Part shown: positions 834 through 11,323 of the stretch, one piece after another
How the letters are laid out: each line of letters opens with the position of its first letter
How positions within the stretch are numbered: position 1 is the stretch's first letter
From: Bacillota bacterium
Lineage (GTDB): Bacteria; Armatimonadota; Hebobacteria; Hebobacterales; Hebobacteraceae
Assembly: GCA_030668755.1 (NCBI GenBank)
Contig: DAOVEW010000005.1
Location: 1-12,366 of the forward strand
DNA: 12,366 bases
Reading direction: 5' to 3'
Position numbers and translations under genes: made by a program
Notes under the pieces: generated by a model
What the model was told of the DNA's origin: nothing
What the model saw: only the letters and a program-made list of their open reading frames with translations
The model's database searches: none

Positions 834-835
834 AT

Positions 836-842
836 GGGAGGG
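836..842 (+). promoter_or_regulatory. Shine-Dalgarno site that decides the amidohydrolase start
   Basis: GGGAGGG lies six bases before the ATG at 849. The in-frame ATG at 834 has only a weaker AGAGGA site, and using it would add five residues (MGGTA) before the conserved N-terminal strand. I therefore take 849 as the start. Confidence 0.6.
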
Positions 843-848
843 ACTGCG

Positions 849-1649
849 ATGAGGATTGACACGCACGTTCACTGGAGTTCGGAAGAGGGATACGTGGACC
901 GTCTCGTCGAGGCGGAGCGGCGGCTTGGTTTCGACAAGGTATGTCTCAACGGCGCAGTCTGGGCCGCGCACCGAGAGGCGAACGATGAGGTGGCCGCCGC
1001 CGCGGCGAGGCGTCCAGACGCAATCGTCGGCTTCGCCTATTTCCGGCTCGGGGCCTGGGGGCCGGAGCGTGTCCGAGAGCTGCACGACCAGGGCTTCCGC
1101 GGGCTGAAGTTCATCCGCCCGCCGGCCCGCTACGATGACAGAGCCTTCTATCCCGTGTACGAGGCGGCGGAAGAGCTGCGCCTCGTGGCCCAGTTCCACA
1201 CCGGAATTGTGGCGCGCACGCCGACTGACAGGGAGCACGACATTGACAACGAGCGACACCGGCAGATCTACCTCGACACGATCGCCCGCGCATTTCCTTC
1301 GCTCAAGATCGTCGGTGCCCACCTGGGCAACCCCTGGTATGAGGAAGCGGGCATGGCCTGTCGGTGGAATCCAAACCTCTACTTCGACCTGAGTGGGTCC
1401 AGCCTGAAGAAGCGGCCGCCGGAGTTCTTCCAGTCCATTCTGTGGTGGACAGAGGAGGGCCAGTACCGCGATCCGGAGGGAAGGCACGCCTGGGAGAAGG
1501 TGGTGTTCGGCTCGGACGTTGCGATCGAGCAGATCGGCGACGTCGTGAACGACTACCAGCGCACGATGGATGCAATCGGCCTGCCGCCCCCGCTTCAGGA
1601 AGCTGTCTTCGGCAACACGATGGCGAAGCTGCTGGGTCTTGATACGTAG
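849..1649 (+). CDS. amidohydrolase 2 family metal-dependent hydrolase
   Basis: The protein of 266 aa is a full-length TIM-barrel hydrolase of the amidohydrolase-related (Amidohydro_2) family, whose members hydrolyse or decarboxylate small organic substrates in the cytoplasm using one divalent metal. The metal-site residues are all visible in order: the HxH motif in MRIDTHVH (H6, H8), a barrel lysine in LKFIRP (K87), QFHTG (H117), GAHLGN (H158) and the terminal aspartate in FGSD (D223). There is no signal peptide. A strong GGGAGGG site selects the ATG at 849; an alternative in-frame ATG lies at 834. The substrate cannot be told from sequence. Such genes are numerous in environmental bacteria that break down plant or aromatic compounds. 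The following gene starts 86 bases later, after a GC-rich hairpin. Confidence 0.9.
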   Translation: MRIDTHVHWSSEEGYVDRLVEAERRLGFDKVCLNGAVWAAHREANDEVAAAAARRPDAIVGFAYFRLGAWGPERVRELHDQGFRGLKFIRPPARYDDRAFYPVYEAAEELRLVAQFHTGIVARTPTDREHDIDNERHRQIYLDTIARAFPSLKIVGAHLGNPWYEEAGMACRWNPNLYFDLSGSSLKKRPPEFFQSILWWTEEGQYRDPEGRHAWEKVVFGSDVAIEQIGDVVNDYQRTMDAIGLPPPLQEAVFGNTMAKLLGLDT

Positions 1650-1735: not shown

Positions 1736-2212
1736 ATGGGAAGAGACTTCTGGCGGCGTCGACGAAGGAGGAGGAAGGCCAGCTTCCTCGGGAGACCGCG
1801 GTCTCCGGCCGAGGAGATGAAGGGGGCGCTGGAGGAGCTGCGGGACCGCAGGGAGCGCAGCCGCCGAAGAGCGCGCGGCAAGCGACGCCATATCGACGAT
1901 TACCGGGAACTTGTGATAGAGGGTGACGAGCGGGGGACGCTCTCCGAGGCACTCCTCAAGCTGACGGCCGAGAGCCATCGTGACCGACATCTGCTCCTGG
2001 CCGAGGAGACACGGCGCAGCGAACTGCCATCGGCGTCGCAGAGCGGAACCGGTCCCGGGGATGCCCAGGCGCAGGCAGAAAGTGCCCTCGAAGAGCTGCG
2101 GGAGGATTTGAGGAAGCGGGGCGCTCCAGAGCGCACTCACTACTACAGAGCCAGCGAGCGACGCGACACCGGGGAAGTGGACCGGACGTACGTCGTAGAC
2201 GAGGAAGAGTAG
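1736..2212 (+). CDS. highly charged hypothetical protein with predicted coiled coil
   Basis: The product has 158 aa. ATG 1736 is preceded by GAGG at eight bases, and codon usage matches the neighbouring genes, so it is probably a real gene. It opens with a basic tract (RRRRRRRK, residues 7-14), continues with Arg/Glu-rich helices (about residues 25-85) and ends in an acidic tail (VVDEEE). The segment ALEELR occurs twice, near residues 30 and 117, which suggests a duplicated helical unit. Tyr and His cluster near the C-terminus (THYYRAS). There is no signal peptide and no known catalytic motif. The composition suits a nucleic-acid-binding or scaffold protein, but that is a guess. I do not recognise a family. 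Confidence 0.65.
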   Translation: MGRDFWRRRRRRRKASFLGRPRSPAEEMKGALEELRDRRERSRRRARGKRRHIDDYRELVIEGDERGTLSEALLKLTAESHRDRHLLLAEETRRSELPSASQSGTGPGDAQAQAESALEELREDLRKRGAPERTHYYRASERRDTGEVDRTYVVDEEE

Positions 2213-2395: not shown

Positions 2396-2493
2396 TTTCC
2401 CGATAAGGGCAAACCCGGCGAAAGGCGGGGACGCAAAGCCACGGGTCTACGGTCCGCATACCACGGACTATGACGGCCAGGCTGCCGAAGGAA
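2396..2493 (+). ncRNA. cyclic di-GMP-I (GEMM-I) riboswitch aptamer
   Basis: The stretch carries the diagnostic landmarks of the class I c-di-GMP aptamer in the right order: AAGGGCAAACC (2405-2415), a short stem capped by a GAAA tetraloop (2420-2423), the block GGGACGCAAAGCC (2428-2440), a helix with GTCCG / CGGAC (2452-2456 and 2464-2468), and the 3' block GGCTGCCGAAGG (2480-2491). TTCC (2396-2399) can pair with GGAA (2490-2493) to close the P1 helix. Class I aptamers bind c-di-GMP, the second messenger that governs attachment versus motility. Here the aptamer precedes an intrinsic terminator and a secreted-protein operon starting at 2659, so it most likely controls whether that operon is transcribed. 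Confidence 0.93.
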
Positions 2494-2498
2494 CAGGA

Positions 2499-2533
2499 GC
2501 TGACGCTGCCCCAACGGACAGGGCGGCATCAGC
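2499..2533 (+). promoter_or_regulatory. strong hairpin between aptamer and terminator
   Basis: GCTGACGCTGCCC (2499-2511) pairs with GGGCGGCATCAGC (2521-2533) over 13 positions with one mismatch and one G-U pair, around a 9-base loop. It starts five bases after the aptamer's P1 helix and has no T tract behind it, so it is not itself a terminator. It could be a spacer or pausing element of the riboswitch expression platform. Confidence 0.5.
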
Positions 2534-2583
2534 AAGAAGCAGCCTGGTGGGTTTGGCCTCGCTGAATAATCGAGCGATTATTG

Positions 2584-2635
2584 GGACCCGCTCTGAGAGA
2601 CCACTGGGCTCTTCGGAGCGGGTCCTTGCTTATTT
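2584..2635 (+). terminator. intrinsic terminator of the riboswitch expression platform
   Basis: GGACCCGCTC (2584-2593) pairs perfectly with GAGCGGGTCC (2616-2625), and an inner GAGAG / CTCTT helix extends the stem. It is followed by the U-rich tail TTGCTTATTT. It lies between the aptamer and the first gene of the operon, which is the expected arrangement for c-di-GMP control of transcription read-through. Its 5' arm can also pair with upstream sequences (2442-2448 inside the aptamer, or GAGCG at 2572-2576), which gives candidate antiterminators. Confidence 0.8.
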
Positions 2636-2658
2636 CGGATGTGGAGGTCGGGTGTTAG

Positions 2659-3228
2659 ATGGGCCGGCAAGTATGGAACAACCAGAACCGTCAGGCAGGA
2701 GCAGGCGGCACAGTGGCAGCGCAACGGGCAATCAAGCGAGGCCTTGCGATAGGCCGGGCGCGAGCTCATACCATTCTCGTGGCCCTCGGCTTGTCGTACA
2801 GCATCGCGGCCCTGTCGGGCGCGGCGCATGCAACGTCCGCTCGGCTGGATTTCGGTGTGTCCACTCTGTCGTTCCCCTCGGCCGACCCAGATTCGGTTCC
2901 CGTCATCCGCGCGGTCGAGAATCCCGTGGCTGTAGACGTAACCATCAACGGCCCGCACTCGACGATATCACAGCTCACGGTCCAGGCCGCGGGAGACCTG
3001 ATCTCAGGTCCCGATCAGATTGCCATCGATCACGTTGGCTGGCAGGGCCAGGGCGAGGGCTTCGTCCCGGGACCCGCGAGGCTGAGCAAGGACGAGCCCA
3101 GGCTCGTCGGCCAGTGGGTGGGCAAAGGCGCCAAACAAGGTAGTCTTCGGTTTGGCATGGAGAACTCCTGGGACTACGCAGCAGGAGTCTACAGCCAGAC
3201 CGTTGTGTATACGCTCGTCGCCTACTGA
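2659..3228 (+). CDS. secreted pilin-like subunit, paralogue 1 (possible tip or terminal subunit)
   Basis: The product has 189 aa. A basic N-region (RAIKRGLAIGRARAH) and a hydrophobic core (TILVALGLSYSIAALSG) end in a likely signal peptidase site, AHA|TSA. The mature part is about 130 aa of beta-strand-like sequence and is clearly paralogous to the next gene. Shared blocks include ADPDSVP, ENPV, GDL-SG, a G-GFV-G block and a C-terminal SWDY-AG-YSQTVVYTL. No family name can be given with confidence; size, composition and context suggest a fibre subunit resembling fimbrial or spore-coat-U proteins. Unlike its paralogue, the mature protein starts directly at the first core strand and has no N-terminal extension. 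The ATG at 2659 is chosen with GGAGG 11 bases upstream; GTG 2713 is an alternative that shortens the unusually long N-region. It is the first gene behind the riboswitch. Confidence 0.85.
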   Translation: MGRQVWNNQNRQAGAGGTVAAQRAIKRGLAIGRARAHTILVALGLSYSIAALSGAAHATSARLDFGVSTLSFPSADPDSVPVIRAVENPVAVDVTINGPHSTISQLTVQAAGDLISGPDQIAIDHVGWQGQGEGFVPGPARLSKDEPRLVGQWVGKGAKQGSLRFGMENSWDYAAGVYSQTVVYTLVAY

Positions 3229-3279
3229 AAGTAAGGGCGACGTCATCAAACGGCAAAACTAGAAAGGTGGAGGCTGAAA

Positions 3280-3786
3280 ATGAGAAAGGTAACAGCAGTA
3301 TGGGCAGCGGCGGTCGCATGCCTTGCCCTGCTGACCGCAAGTGCGGAGGGCTGGGCGGCGACTGACCAGCAGTCGCTGACGATCAACGCCACGGTGTCGG
3401 CAAAGGCGAAGCTGACGCTGGGCGTAGCTGCGATCAACTTCCCGGACGCAGATCCGGATTCCGTGCCCTCGATCGCAGCGACGGAGAACCCCGTCTCGGT
3501 CACGGTGAAGACGCAGGCCGGGTCGGCGTCGAGCGTGACACTGACGGCCCAGGCAAACGGAGACCTCGACTCCGGCACCGACACCATCGACATCACCAAT
3601 GTGACGTGGACTGCAACCGGCGCTGGGTTCGTCGGCGGCACCATGGACACAGCCGCGCAGTCGGCCGGCGCTTGGACCGGGTCCGGCCGTCGTGACGGCA
3701 CGTTCTCATACGCGCTGGCCAATAGCTGGGACTACACGGCCGGCAGCTACTCGCAGACAGTCGTCTATACGCTGACAGCTCCGTAG
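3280..3786 (+). CDS. secreted pilin-like subunit, paralogue 2 (possible major subunit)
   Basis: The product has 168 aa. The ATG has GGAGG six bases upstream. Residues 1-26 form a typical signal peptide ending in GWA|ATD or nearby. The mature protein begins with an alternating hydrophobic stretch, QSLTINATVSAKAKLTLG, followed by the same blocks as the previous gene (ADPDSVP, ENPVSVTV, GDL-SG, NSWDYTAG, YSQTVVYTLTAP). It has no cysteines in the mature part. The N-terminal alternating segment is the kind of strand that could complete the fold of a neighbouring subunit by donor-strand exchange, as in chaperone-usher fibres; this is inference. It lies 51 bases after paralogue 1 and is followed by a strong hairpin that may raise its mRNA level relative to the downstream assembly genes. 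Confidence 0.87.
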   Translation: MRKVTAVWAAAVACLALLTASAEGWAATDQQSLTINATVSAKAKLTLGVAAINFPDADPDSVPSIAATENPVSVTVKTQAGSASSVTLTAQANGDLDSGTDTIDITNVTWTATGAGFVGGTMDTAAQSAGAWTGSGRRDGTFSYALANSWDYTAGSYSQTVVYTLTAP

Positions 3787-3814
3787 CAGGGATCACAGAC
3801 ACGGCCTGGAGATG

Positions 3815-3860
3815 CTCAGGGCCGGGCCGGAGCCGGATTCACGGTTCGCCCGGCCCTGAG
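3815..3860 (+). promoter_or_regulatory. intercistronic stem-loop between subunit and chaperone genes
   Basis: CTCAGGGCCGGGC (3815-3827) is a perfect 13-bp complement of GCCCGGCCCTGAG (3848-3860). After a 2-base bulge the helix continues with GAGCCG / CGGTTC around a 6-base loop, giving about 19 bp in all. There is no T run after it, so it is not a classical terminator. Placed right after the likely major subunit gene, it could protect the upstream mRNA from 3' exonucleases or partly reduce transcription into the assembly genes, as is known in pilin operons. Confidence 0.7.
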
Positions 3861-3903
3861 TGGAAGTGACGTCCGAGGCCAAGCGAGAACAGGAGAGAAA
3901 GCA

Positions 3904-4725
3904 ATGTCCAAGGTCATGGCTGCCTGGATGGTCGGACTGGCGTGCTGCATGTGCGCCGGCGCCGCGCTGGCTGTGCCCTGCTCGATGGAGATCTCGCCGC
4001 TGACGCTGGAGCTCCAGTTGGCGCCTGGGCGGGCCCACACCGGCCACATTCAGATCACGAACGCGGGCGACGGCGCGGAGCACATCCGCGCCTACGCCCA
4101 GGACTGGACCCTGAAGCCCGACGGCGTCGTCGTCTTCCTGCCCGCTGGAAGGCTCCCCAGCTCGGCGAGCGTATGGGTCACCATTGCGCCGGCCGAGTTC
4201 GACCTTCAGCCGGGACAGAGCCAGCGGGTTCGCTACACGATTCGAGTGCCCGAGGATGCCTCGGGAGAGGCTCGCACAGTGATCATTTTCGAGGCAGGCG
4301 GGCGGGATCTCTCGATCTCGAATGGGCCTTCTCGTCTGGTGCCGCGCGTCGGCACCATCTTCTACGTGCACTGCGGACCGCGCCCCGCCGGGCAGGCGCG
4401 CGTTCTGCGCTTCGAGCCGGGTCGGGAAGCGGGCACGATGACCGTGGAGAATGCAGGGCCAGCGCACCTGCGTTTCACAGGAGAACTCGAGATTCGTTCA
4501 GAAGGCAAGCTCGTACGCCGGTGCGTCTTGCGGCCGTTCGTCGTGCTTCCCGCTCCGTTCAACATTCAGCGCGCCCGGCTCGGCCCCGACCTCTTCGCGG
4601 GTCTGCCAGCGGGCCACTACGAAGTCACAGCCATTCTCGACCATGGAGGGACCGCCCTGCTGGGTGCTCGCGCTGAGGTGGACCTGGGCCCCGAGCCGCC
4701 GTTGCTCATTGCGAGTGAGGAATGA
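3904..4725 (+). CDS. PapD-like periplasmic chaperone (fimbrial assembly type)
   Basis: The product has 273 aa. The ATG has AGGAG eight bases upstream. Residues 1-23 are a signal peptide ending in ALA|VPC. The N-terminal domain (about 25-130) has the immunoglobulin-like pattern of pilus chaperones: MEISPLTLELQLAPG, then the strand HIQITNAG, then PAEFDLQPGQSQRVRYTIRVP, which corresponds to the family's 'P-x-L-PG-x-Q-x-VR' region. A second beta domain (about 160-260) follows. In the known systems such chaperones hold subunits in the periplasm by lending a strand, and deliver them to an outer-membrane usher. It lies between the two subunit genes and the putative barrel gene and overlaps the latter by ATGA (4722-4725), which implies translational coupling. 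Substrate binding to the neighbouring subunits is inferred from context. Confidence 0.75.
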   Translation: MSKVMAAWMVGLACCMCAGAALAVPCSMEISPLTLELQLAPGRAHTGHIQITNAGDGAEHIRAYAQDWTLKPDGVVVFLPAGRLPSSASVWVTIAPAEFDLQPGQSQRVRYTIRVPEDASGEARTVIIFEAGGRDLSISNGPSRLVPRVGTIFYVHCGPRPAGQARVLRFEPGREAGTMTVENAGPAHLRFTGELEIRSEGKLVRRCVLRPFVVLPAPFNIQRARLGPDLFAGLPAGHYEVTAILDHGGTALLGARAEVDLGPEPPLLIASEE

Positions 4726-6335
4726 TCTCCGGGCGCACGAGCGCCATATGCGGACTGCTGCTGATGGTCGCCGCCGGAGTGGCGGGGGCCACCCAGGAGC
4801 AGTCCGCATCTCTTAGGCTCACTGGATCGGCGGCGACACTTTCACAGGTGGCCGACTTCGGCGACGGACCCCGTGTGCCGCTCTCTGAGCTTGGCGGGCG
4901 GCTGGGCGTCATCGTGACAGTAGCAGGCCGAAACATCAACATCGTGCGGCGCGACGGCAGTGAGCTGCGCCTGAAGGGCGCGTTCGCCGGAGATCCCCGG
5001 CTCCCTGTCGCCTCCGACGCGATCCTGATTCGCGATGGTGAGGCCTGGGCGCTGCCGGAGGAGGCACTGCCCCTCCTTGGTCTGGCCGAGACCGGCCGCC
5101 AAGGCCCGCGGCCGTCGGCCATGCGACGAGACGGTTCGGCACCGGGGGCCTTCCAGGCATTCGAGGTCGCCAAGCCCGCCGTTGCGCGGCCTGCGCCCAG
5201 ACCTCCGGCGACTTCGCCGCACGCGCGAGTCCTGCCGAGCTTGGCCACGAACTCGCCGGCGGAGTCGGGATGGGTCGAGGTCTACCCGGTCGAGGTGGAG
5301 GTCGGGATCGGCCGCACCTCCACGTTCACGTCCCAAGGCATGACAGGCTTCTACCAGCAGGTGATTGGGCCGGCAGCCAGCTCGACCGGCTACCAGCCCC
5401 GAGAGCTGGAGCCGCGCTCCCCGGTCAGCACCACGATGTCGCACTTACACCTGGAGACAGCCGACGGGGACCGGTTCTTTGCGGTCGGCGACGTCTTCCA
5501 TCCCCTCTGGGGCACGGCAACAGGGATTGAGGTCGAATCGGCCATTTCAGAGCACTCTCGCGTAGCGGCATCGGTCATGGTCCCGAGCGACACTCGGGGC
5601 GAACATCCCGACGGCCGGTTCGCACTGCGGGCCTCGACTGCGGCGCCCGCCGGACTGGCCACTGAAGCGGCGATAGGAGCCGATGGCTCCTACTTCGCCT
5701 CCGGCAGTTGGGAGGGGCAGAGACTCTCGCTCCGCTCCTCCATTGCGGAACGGTCTGACCTCAGCCGCAGGGATGCCTGGTGCCAGCACCGACCGCTGCC
5801 ATCGGTCACCATGTTCGGCCGCGTCTCGGAGGTGGCCGGTCTGTACGAGGCGCGGGCGCAGCTGCTGGGTGTCCACTGGCGTCTGGGGCGTGCCCACGTG
5901 GGTGTTGAGCGGACGCAAGGCACTTCCTTCGAAGAGCCCTGGGGCACGGATGCAATCTCGGTGTCCCTGCTCAGAGGCCAGGCTAGTGGTGTGGTGCGGT
6001 ACCTCGTGCCCCGGGAGGGCACCGGGCGCGCCGGCCTGGAGTTGTCGCTGTCTCGCTGCGATTCTCTGGGCCGCCAGGTGTTCTTCAGCTCGTCCGCGCC
6101 GGACAACACAGAATTGGGCGCCAGCCGCAGCTATCGGCTCGGCACCTCTCTGCCGGTGGGGAAGGACCTGCGCGCACGGACGGCGCTCGACTGGGGGGCA
6201 AGCGGCATCCACCCCGAGGGCAAGCTCGAGTGGCGGCCATCCCGAGACCGGATGGTGGCCTTGCGCTACGGAGTGCTTGACTTCGGAGCTCCCGGAACGA
6301 CGGCAGGCCGCGCTCTGGTTCTTCAGGCAAGCTGA
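4722..6335 (+). CDS. putative outer-membrane barrel protein, usher-like (ends at an in-frame TGA)
   Basis: The product has 537 aa. A signal peptide (residues 1-23, AGA|TQE) is followed by a small domain (about 45-121; VPLSELGGRLGVIV, then INIVRRDG, then WALPEEALPLLGL) that resembles the copper-amine-oxidase-N or stalk-type domains. Next come a Pro/Ala/Arg-rich linker (about 122-180) and then ~350 residues of alternating polar and hydrophobic short strands ending in GRALVLQAS, as in a beta barrel. A GD-rich segment (DGDRFFAVGDVFHPLWG) recalls the barrel repeats of ushers. It is shorter than classical ushers (~800 aa). The frame stays open after the TGA at 6333-6335 and runs into CnaB-like domains at 6381-6941. 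A usher-like pore for the two subunits is my inference; another outer-membrane anchor is possible. Confidence 0.75.
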   Translation: MISGRTSAICGLLLMVAAGVAGATQEQSASLRLTGSAATLSQVADFGDGPRVPLSELGGRLGVIVTVAGRNINIVRRDGSELRLKGAFAGDPRLPVASDAILIRDGEAWALPEEALPLLGLAETGRQGPRPSAMRRDGSAPGAFQAFEVAKPAVARPAPRPPATSPHARVLPSLATNSPAESGWVEVYPVEVEVGIGRTSTFTSQGMTGFYQQVIGPAASSTGYQPRELEPRSPVSTTMSHLHLETADGDRFFAVGDVFHPLWGTATGIEVESAISEHSRVAASVMVPSDTRGEHPDGRFALRASTAAPAGLATEAAIGADGSYFASGSWEGQRLSLRSSIAERSDLSRRDAWCQHRPLPSVTMFGRVSEVAGLYEARAQLLGVHWRLGRAHVGVERTQGTSFEEPWGTDAISVSLLRGQASGVVRYLVPREGTGRAGLELSLSRCDSLGRQVFFSSSAPDNTELGASRSYRLGTSLPVGKDLRARTALDWGASGIHPEGKLEWRPSRDRMVALRYGVLDFGAPGTTAGRALVLQAS

Positions 6336-6359
6336 GCCTTCGGCGATGCCGGCGAGGGC
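6336..6359 (+). promoter_or_regulatory. stem-loop directly after the in-frame TGA
   Basis: Starting with the base after the TGA, GCCTTC pairs with GAGGGC (one G-U pair) and GGC with GCC around a GAT loop, with a 3-base bulge on the 3' side. Structures directly 3' of a UGA can promote read-through, but this one may simply reflect the GC-rich coding sequence. Confidence 0.3.
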
Positions 6360-6380
6360 CCGCGGGGCACTGGACATGTC

Positions 6381-6941
6381 GTGGGGACAGTGAAGGACGA
6401 TTCCGGCCTCGGGGTCGCTGATGTCATAGTTGTGCTGGATGGCGAGACGACGACCGTGACGGCCCCCGATGGGAGCTACAGGTTCGACGGAGTTGACCTG
6501 GGACGACACCTGGTGAAACTCGACGCGGCGCGGCTCCACACCGACCTCGGGGGACTGCTGCAGACGAGAGCCGTGTTCGTCTCACAGAACGAACCCGGCC
6601 GCGCCAATTTCCTGCTGGCCCGGCTGTGCCAGATCGCCGGACAGGTCTATGTGAAGGACGCCAGGTCCGACTATCGAGAGCCGCTCGCCAGCGTTGTCGT
6701 GGAGCTGAGCAGCGGGGTGCAGGCGACGACTGACAGCGGAGGGCGCTATCGGTTTGTCGGCCTGAAGCCCGGACGCTATACGGTTGGGGTGGCATCTACC
6801 ACAGATCTGTTAGCCCTGATGCCGATTCCACCGACTTCCTGGTCCTTCAACCTCCGACCCGGCGAAAACGCCACGGGCGCAGACTTCGCATTCGAGCGCC
6901 GACAGCGCCACATCATCTTCGCCGTGCTTCCCGCCAGCTAG
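6381..6941 (+). CDS. carboxypeptidase-regulatory-like (CnaB-like) tandem domains, probably the C-terminal part of the preceding gene
   Basis: The open stretch encodes 186 aa from GTG 6381, but the frame is open from 6336. It contains two beta-sandwich units with the classic pattern 'G-V-x-D-x-G-x-P/G-V-V-x-L-x-G, T-x-DG-x-Y-F, L-G-x-V-L' at about residues 2-48 (VADVIVVLDGETT, then APDGSYRFDGVDLGRHLVKL) and 84-137 (QIAGQVYVKD, then TDSGGRYRFVGLKPGRYTV). A final strand-rich tail follows (FNLRPGENATGADFAFE). Such domains are extracytoplasmic, yet there is no signal peptide and no convincing ribosome binding site at 6381. The natural first strand (GHVVGTV) begins before 6381 and is in the same frame as the barrel gene. 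Most likely this was one ~739-residue protein now split by the TGA. Alternatively it is read through, or 6333 is a sequencing error. Confidence 0.6.
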   Translation: MGTVKDDSGLGVADVIVVLDGETTTVTAPDGSYRFDGVDLGRHLVKLDAARLHTDLGGLLQTRAVFVSQNEPGRANFLLARLCQIAGQVYVKDARSDYREPLASVVVELSSGVQATTDSGGRYRFVGLKPGRYTVGVASTTDLLALMPIPPTSWSFNLRPGENATGADFAFERRQRHIIFAVLPAS

Positions 6942-7052: not shown

Positions 7053-7110
7053 GGGCCGTGATCGTAGAAGGCACATTCCTGGGGCCGTGACCGCAGGAGG
7101 CACATTCCTG
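7053..7110 (+). repeat. two-copy 29-bp tandem repeat
   Basis: The unit GGGCCGTGA-CGTAGAAGG-CACATTCCTG (7053-7081) is followed without a gap by a second copy at 7082-7110. They differ at three of 29 positions, two T to C and one A to G. With only two copies it is not a CRISPR array. The second copy continues into a palindrome (7099-7114). Confidence 0.85.
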
Positions 7111-10999: not shown

Positions 11000-11323
11000 A
11001 TGAAGGTCCTGCGCCGCGAGGAGATATGGATCCACACTCACTTCGTGACGGACTGCGCCTATCTCCCAGATCACTCCGCGCGGGAGATACGCCGGAAGAT
11101 GGACCGCGTGCTGGATAAGCTCGGCATCGTCTTCGGCATTCACTTCGATGCACGCGGCGACGAAGGACTGCGTATCGTGCTGGAGTGCATCCCTCTCCCG
11201 GAGACGATGGCAGAGATCGAGTCGAGCCTCGAAAAGACCATCGAGCCCGTCCCTGCGCGCCCGCGGCGAACGCACGTCGAGATCGAGCCGCCCAAGCGGC
11301 GCAATGGGGCGAAGAGGAGGTAA
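11000..11323 (+). CDS. small basic protein of unknown function
   Basis: The product has 107 aa. ATG 11000 (MKVLRREE) has GAGG five bases upstream. The frame is open much further upstream (to 10664), but that part is antisense to the GT87 gene. The core (residues 8-85) looks like a small alpha/beta fold, with IWIHTHFVTDCAYLPDH, a helical REIRRKMDRVLDKLG, then strands FGIHFD and LRIVLECIPLP. Several His and Cys residues (H11, H13, C18) sit near the start and might bind metal. The tail is basic (PKRRNGAKRR). There is no signal peptide. Its TAA follows directly on the AGGAGG site of the oxidoreductase gene, so the two are co-transcribed. I do not recognise the family. Confidence 0.65.
   Translation: MKVLRREEIWIHTHFVTDCAYLPDHSAREIRRKMDRVLDKLGIVFGIHFDARGDEGLRIVLECIPLPETMAEIESSLEKTIEPVPARPRRTHVEIEPPKRRNGAKRR

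Follow-up and report, generated by a model that had tools for sequence, protein, structure and literature searches.

A GEMM-I riboswitch ahead of a probable chaperone-usher-like surface-fibre operon in an uncultured bacterium of the Armatimonadota

The window analysed here, a 12,366-nucleotide stretch of DNA, belongs to an uncultured marine-sediment bacterium of the class Hebobacteria (Armatimonadota). A riboswitch in this window heads four genes, coding for two subunits (A and B), a PapD-like chaperone (C), and a candidate outer-membrane barrel protein (D) (Table 1). The MAGs of these classes are considered likely Gram-negative because of their LPS genes (PMC10290634).

Table 1 Features of the leader and of the four genes in the window
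Feature	Positions	Strand	Basis
Class-I c-di-GMP (GEMM-I) riboswitch aptamer	2398..2489	+	RF01051, orthologues aligned in L031/L032
Aptamer 3' strand, 9-bp complement of linker 2539-2547 (candidate aptamer/anti-aptamer switch)	2477..2485	+	shuffles, ligand-free fold
Candidate anti-aptamer segment in linker	2539..2547	+	complementarity to 2477-2485
Intrinsic-terminator hairpin, then T-rich run	2583..2626	+	aligned in three species
Gene A: secreted subunit lacking an N-terminal extension (tip subunit proposed)	2659..3228	+	sequence comparison; no Pfam match
Gene B: secreted subunit whose N-terminal extension resembles a donor strand (shaft subunit proposed)	3280..3786	+	401 relatives
Gene C: periplasmic PapD/WxLIP-like chaperone	3904..4725	+	AF2, Foldseek, hhalign to EcpB
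Gene D: outer-membrane usher-like protein (candidate), in-frame TGA at 6333-6335	4722..6941	+	intact orthologues
D N-terminal domain, copper-amine-oxidase-N-like, approximate limits	4854..5081	+	AF2 secondary structure, L031 orthologue
D predicted beta-barrel segment, approximate limits	5448..6335	+	AF2 of L031 orthologue, low confidence
D C-terminal region: two transthyretin-like domains (CarboxypepD_reg / SdrD_B)	6381..6941	+	PF13620, PF17210

A first-pass annotation of this DNA had placed a GEMM-I aptamer and a terminator upstream of the genes and had proposed a covariance-model search, and both elements were borne out. RF01051 matched the aptamer over its full length (model positions 1-87 of 87) with E 7.2e-15 and 80.2 bits, where the gathering score is 35. 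The terminator hairpin has a pairing probability of 1.0 at the six bases examined, and the leader fold has a z of -5.6. The hairpin is kept in two relatives, partly via compensatory changes: in the three-species alignment, the pairs 2584/2625 (GC to AT) and 2591/2618 (CG to TA) are changed on both sides, and 2596/2613 is A-C in both relatives. With it, the leader has the expression platform ahead of the genes that is expected of an RF01051 riboswitch. Scanning for terminators gave 11 sites where 4.8 were expected, the promoter scan gave no sigma-70-like site where 0.9 were expected, and the ribosome-site pattern matched at none of the four gene starts.

The 9-bp complementarity between the aptamer 3' strand and the linker, which is present in the ligand-free minimum-energy fold, was matched by 24 of 1000 linker shuffles. 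The L031 linker has a 9-bp complement to a different part of the aptamer, and that of L032 has at most 5 bp. RNA folding predicts the terminator hairpin both with and without the aptamer and does not give the switch direction. By analogy with attachment organelles, we lean towards a switch that is ON with c-di-GMP. The ligand would be c-di-GMP rather than cGAMP; the genome has two GGDEF matches.

The first-pass annotation had also proposed looking for the same gene order behind GEMM-I in related genomes. The riboswitch-A-B-C-D block also occurs in two family mates with subunits (G005 and G007), and the order was found in all three family genomes with subunits (at most 12 candidates scored per genome). 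Three other genomes, scored in the same way, keep an amidohydrolase and GEMM-I with no A/B match (G001, G002, and G004); the contigs of the last two stop 1.5 and 0.9 kb past the aptamer. In 12/12 genomes of the phylum among the matches listed from 291 genomes searched, the gene immediately upstream of the D relative encodes a C relative, so that D lies beside its chaperone, as an usher would. This set comprises near-full-length D relatives, with at most three candidates scored per genome and the partial D matches in G280 and G274 left out, and four of its members are absent from the building set of the D profile. Eleven further loci that contain a chaperone relative were scanned for GEMM-I, and none reached the gathering score; one of them (L106) begins 58 bases before its first subunit, too close to show a leader, and L074 lay outside the scan. 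From these sequences, the riboswitch seems to be peculiar to this lineage.

A and B are small paralogues, 39% identical in alignment A5, and both carry a signal peptide as judged by eye, in agreement with the earlier description of two secreted paralogous subunits. A glycine lies 14 residues from the C-terminus in 30/30 complete A5 rows. The sequence pattern of an N-terminal extension with alternating hydrophobic residues, a putative donor strand, is present in 27 of the 31 A5 rows, the others being three A-type rows and P0098, whose extension starts with Val. Because B has this donor-strand-like extension and A lacks it, A looks like a tip subunit and B like a shaft subunit. Neither subunit matched a Pfam family, and no sequence kinship to any known pilin was found, including by profile comparison with EcpA; the best phmmer match of B among PDB sequences was a xylanase (E 0.32).

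C, modelled as a PapD-like chaperone, is the best-supported part of the operon after this follow-up. The AF2 model (pLDDT 87.4, pTM 0.78) consists of two Ig-like domains in the PapD arrangement, and its nearest folds are WxLIP, the single nearest (Foldseek E 2.4e-12), CsuC (1.5e-9), FimC, CfaA, SafB, and Caf1M. Profile comparison by hhalign with EcpB gave a probability of 69.8, a pairwise E of 4e-5, and a score of 39.4, against at most 18.5 in nine other valid comparisons. Some of the signature residues of EcpB, whose roles are taken from PMC4654587, are also found in C. The superfamily proline of domain 1 (EcpB Pro60) corresponds to P96, kept in 29/30 rows, and the anchor arginine of domain 2 (Arg148) to R190, kept in 30/30. 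The strand-F arginine of domain 1 (Arg89) aligns with T125, next to R124, which is found in 28/30 rows. The alignment stops short of the anchor Tyr169 of EcpB; by eye, residues 211-217 of C resemble that stretch and have Phe and Val there. Y239 (30/30 rows) had been considered as the Tyr169 equivalent and was withdrawn, as it sits elsewhere than 211-217. PapD_N scored above its cut-off in 0/61 genomes, a result that is not decisive because E. coli EcpB itself scores under the cut-off. The earlier suggestion that the product of this gene is PapD-like is well sustained by the confident model, the nearest folds, and the similarity to EcpB.

D is a single interrupted gene. Open reading frames 4722 and 6381 share one frame and are separated by the TGA; in a genome profile search, D of the window is one 740-codon frame with one internal TGA. 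L031 and L032 have a single 741-aa ORF at this position, D is one protein of 736-741 residues in five relatives, and the intact 739-aa protein P0005 shares 97.6% and 96.8% identity with the two pieces. The domains formerly called CnaB-like, now matched by PF13620 (E 1.5e-15) and PF17210 (E 2e-10), are the C-terminus of D itself because the two ORFs are one gene. The first-pass annotation had named a putative outer-membrane barrel with CnaB-like domains and had called the barrel much shorter than known ushers; ORF 4722 is, however, not a complete short protein. The length comparison drew on the interrupted ORF: the whole protein has about 740 residues, against precursor lengths of 841 for EcpC and 878 for FimD, although the predicted barrel segment is itself short, at about 300 residues. 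The earlier overall reading is supported for the riboswitch, terminator, subunits, PapD-like chaperone, and recurring gene order; an usher identity of D is suggested.

The middle of D is provisionally modelled as an outer-membrane barrel with an usher role. AF2 predicts 21 strands over residues 245-540 of the L031 orthologue (pLDDT 55), and with this low-confidence model the first Foldseek match is a FimD usher entry (9fw9_D, E 5.5e-11), which suggests an usher. No usher is among the best 50 VIA-align rows, which we do not count as evidence for a different fold. The D profile A1 (six rows) matched neither EcpC nor FimD. Profile A4 matched EcpC in one C-terminal-domain stretch (probability 12.6, E 0.0023, and a score of 36.2, where reversed controls reached 24.4 at most) and neither protein in the barrel. 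PF07833 scores only in the Omnitrophota homologue L074 (E 2.2e-9), in the stretch aligned to the N-terminal domain of D. PF00577 (Usher) was found in 0/61 genomes, and E. coli EcpC is likewise unmatched. We therefore rejected the Pfam negatives as an argument against chaperone-usher kinship, as EcpC escapes PF00577 and EcpB falls under the PapD_N cut-off.

We propose, with a probability of roughly two in three, that the locus encodes a divergent surface fibre of chaperone-usher-like type and that a riboswitch attenuates the operon. Transcription would enter the leader, where the GEMM-I aptamer would sense c-di-GMP and, depending on its state, RNA polymerase would halt at the hairpin or continue into A-B-C-D. 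A and B would be exported to the periplasm, where C would complete their unfinished sandwich with a beta-strand of its own. At the outer membrane, D would receive the chaperone-subunit complexes, and the subunits would polymerise outward at D through strand exchange, A exiting first as the tip and B, with its N-terminal strand, building the shaft. With the in-frame stop in D, this strain may be unable to make the fibre, unless the stop is a consensus error.

The locus could instead encode a WxL-type surface complex in which C remains attached to the subunits, in the manner of WxLIP and WxL, to display or anchor them on the surface, D being an outer-membrane anchor and no polymerisation taking place. 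We regard this as unlikely: C has no C-terminal transmembrane helix by eye in its last 40 residues or in the model, the N-terminal extension of B is strand-like and suited to exchange, the W-x-L motif is present in 0/31 subunit rows, and PF13731 (WxL) was found in 0/61 genomes, with the Lactococcus control recovered. WxL kinship of A and B by sequence was rejected, as none was found by profile or motif. It is also improbable that D forms a barrel of porin or export type through which single B/A proteins are secreted as a coat or matrix, with C as a holdase. Porins do come first in VIA-align, where Opd/Occ-type porins and AlgE rank high (D residues 250-508), neither Pfam nor the weak AF2 model showed a plug domain, and the barrel segment is short; nevertheless, the PapD-like fold of C, the chaperone-outer-membrane-protein gene pair in all 12 genomes among the matches listed, and the difference between A and B expected of tip and shaft subunits argue against it. 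Least probable is a relic, decaying in this lineage as the stop at 6333 and the three genomes with GEMM-I and no A/B match might suggest, its conserved riboswitch slot serving other cargo, as the reading frames are otherwise open, the near-identical P0005 is intact, and a genome 55% complete in 411 contigs may contain a consensus error.

Chaperone-usher pili have been studied mostly in Proteobacteria, and we know of no cultured member of this diderm lineage. A conserved subunit-chaperone-barrel locus in Armatimonadota, outside Pfam PapD_N and Usher, would broaden the range of the pathway and offer a link to the WxL/WxLIP complexes of Bacillota that can be tested, and the riboswitch would make fibre expression in a diderm lineage directly dependent on c-di-GMP. 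Among open-licence PMC papers, none joined chaperone-usher with the Armatimonadota, and the titles and abstract beginnings of those listed paired no c-di-GMP riboswitch with a chaperone-usher operon. Tentatively, a separate chaperone-usher branch could exist in Armatimonadota and in one or more Omnitrophota records. Its subunits would form a family that has no name yet, its chaperone would lie between WxLIP and the alternative-pathway chaperones in structure, and its usher-like barrel would end in TTR-like domains. This branch might be a diderm counterpart linking Gram-positive WxL/WxLIP complexes with chaperone-usher pili, switched in Hebobacteria by a c-di-GMP riboswitch.

Among GEMM-I switches with transcription terminators, PMC9262584 describes the c-di-GMP switch Cd1 as OFF and the cGAMP switch pilM as ON. 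The leader shares their aptamer family and terminator platform but precedes a chaperone-usher-like operon, its ligand and direction being predictions. Of the WxL/WxLIP surface proteins of Bacillota, WxLIP has the single nearest fold to C, whereas A and B lack the WxL motif, C has no visible transmembrane helix, and its partner is the outer-membrane-protein candidate D. CsuC of the archaic chaperone-usher pili (Csu) is also among the nearest folds of C, although here there is no PF00577 match and A and B match no Pfam family. The E. coli common pilus (EcpA-EcpB-EcpC) of the alternative pathway differs in that A and B are unrelated in sequence to EcpA and a GEMM-I leader heads the A-B-C-D operon. 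D also differs: it starts with a copper-amine-oxidase-N-like domain and ends in two TTR-like ones, its predicted barrel is shorter, and no TcfC domain was recognised in it. However, C and EcpB match as profiles and have in common the proline of the superfamily and the anchor arginine of domain 2, EcpC ends in a PF13620-type domain as D does, both escape PF00577, and the order subunit-chaperone-usher is the same.

The c-di-GMP riboswitch and the operon behind it (secreted subunits A and B, PapD-like chaperone C and usher-like candidate D) are a real, conserved unit, with fibre assembly and an usher function for D as its likeliest reading. The class-I aptamer (GEMM-I) that the first-pass annotation had placed in the leader was borne out by cmscan, which matched all 87 positions of RF01051 at 80.2 bits (E 7.2e-15); it is the one copy found in the incomplete source genome (1.92 Mb, 55% complete), whose contig 366 the window spans in full. 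The same annotation proposed a search of related genomes for this gene order behind GEMM-I, and tblastn of the window proteins on the loci fetched recovered A, B, C, D, E in that order behind GEMM-I in two family mates only, G005 and G007. An A/B profile matched 4 of 291 Armatimonadota genomes, namely the source genome (G000), both family mates and, more distantly, G074 (E 1.2e-13), and the riboswitch stands directly before A in all three own-family genomes with subunits. MAGs of the class Hebobacteria (Armatimonadota) are described from marine sediments in PMC10290634 and are likely Gram-negative, judged from LPS genes; ‘pili’, ‘pilus’, ‘usher’ and ‘riboswitch’ do not occur in the main text of that paper.

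Coordinates of features in the window
Feature	Position	Strand	Remark
Amidohydrolase gene	834-1649		PF04909
Small gene	1736-2212		158 aa, family unassigned; just before riboswitch; 46-54% identity in both operon-bearing relatives
GEMM-I aptamer	2398-2489		RF01051
Hairpin	2583-2626		long, GC-rich, then T-rich run
A	2659-3228		secreted subunit
B	3280-3786		secreted subunit
C	3904-4725		PapD-like chaperone
D, first piece	4722-6335		in-frame TGA 6333-6335
D, second piece	6381-6941		same frame
Repeat	7053-7110		two adjacent 29-base units, 26/29 identical; between D and DUF6785 gene
Small protein	11000-11323	+	between GT87 and GFO/IDH gene; L031 counterpart at 6501-6914

Downstream of the aptamer, 18 of the 19 hairpin pairs are also standard pairs in the orthologous loci L031 and L032, both of which have A-C at 2596/2613. 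Between the window and these relatives, two pairs are altered on both sides (GC to AT, CG to TA); each change may be a single event, as the two hosts belong to one genus. Pairing probability is 1.0 at the examined hairpin bases in all three ligand-free leaders, and the window hairpin persists with the aptamer enforced in folding. In the window, 9 linker bases are complementary to the aptamer 3′ strand (a length reached in 24/1000 shuffles); the L031 linker has a different 9-base aptamer complement (28/1000) and the L032 linker 5 bases only. The leader is therefore likely an attenuator, whose coupling to the aptamer is putative and which may work in either direction. Both directions of control occur among GEMM-I switches (c-di-GMP switch Cd1 OFF, cGAMP switch pilM ON; PMC9262584).

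Across the phylum GEMM-I is widespread: 34 of 61 relatives have a match at E 1e-3, and 31 score above cut-off. The amidohydrolase followed by GEMM-I also occurs in G001, G002 and G004 (L033, L034, L039), with no A-D matches after it, the G002 and G004 contigs ending 1.5 and 0.9 kb past the aptamer; the riboswitch slot seems conserved and its cargo changing. In G001 the nearest large downstream ORFs lie on the opposite strand, one FliF-like by eye. Other GEMM-I sites of the class (L038, L044, L050, L051, L053, L054, L055) precede ORFs that by eye resemble type IV prepilins, proteins of the PilM/PilN kind and a secreted protein whose end is SLH-like. These sites may form a c-di-GMP riboswitch regulon for surface structures.

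The chaperone kinship of C is well supported. Among the matches listed for the D profile in the 291 genomes, near-full-length relatives (at least 650 of 842 positions) occur in 12 (G000, G005, G007, G013, G029, G035, G038, G074, G224, G275, G281, G282), of which G224, G275, G281 and G282 lie outside the set used to build it. A C relative is next upstream on the same strand in all 12, at a gap of 388 bases in L106. One or two small proteins precede C in the loci read (the ORF call around C in L126 is untidy), and the Omnitrophota locus L074 has the same order. At L104 and L102 the chaperone and preceding small proteins lack a complete D; the L104 contig ends within the gene after the chaperone, and no D relative was seen at L102. 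None of 11 loci (L102-L107, L122-L126) carries GEMM-I at gathering score. The C search matched 16 of 61 relatives, its hits including larger proteins with two C-like stretches; ORFs of about 530-610 aa in G005 (C153), G010 (C57) and G040 (C38) have these in tandem.

For B, we found no kin in Pfam or PDB; its family comprises 401 relatives, and some of the best 120 of these exceed 60% identity and are labelled Thermodesulfobacteriota, Desulfobacterales. In an Armatimonadetes MAG, the B and C relatives have consecutive locus numbers (JXA57_01250, JXA57_01245). A Gly 14 residues from the C-terminus is present in 30/30 complete rows of the subunit alignment. Mature B and its kin start with a QTLTINATV-like run ahead of the first conserved strand, whereas A in all three species begins directly at that strand, if the signal-peptide ends, set by eye, are correct. 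A chaperone-usher subunit without a donor strand is generally the tip subunit. We therefore propose that A would be the tip and B the shaft subunit, by analogy with the donor-strand logic of chaperone-usher systems (PMC4654587).

The first-pass annotation took the 4722 product for a putative barrel well below usher length, but that frame is interrupted: D is one gene that includes the 6381 ORF. The same stretch is a single 741-aa ORF in L031 and L032. The uninterrupted 739-aa protein P0005 shares 97.6% identity with the first piece and 96.8% with the second. The stop in the window copy is therefore either a real mutation or a consensus error, and intact copies of the gene exist elsewhere. D has a signal peptide (by eye), a copper-amine-oxidase-N-like N-terminal domain, a linker and a strand-rich region, and ends in two CarboxypepD_reg/SdrD_B domains. 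For the N-terminal domain, the PF07833 score comes from the Omnitrophota homologue; D itself has none. Further downstream, the small protein at 11000 may be a real gene concealed within a longer ORF call, given its L031 counterpart.

PF00577 and PF00345 were each found in 0/61 genomes, with the E. coli positive controls found. These zeros are compatible with the alternative chaperone-usher pathway, since the E. coli usher EcpC has no match to PF00577 at E 0.1 and EcpB scores PapD_N below cut-off (E 0.017). EcpC scores CooC_C and, below cut-off, a PF13620-type domain at its C-terminus; D carries this domain type twice.
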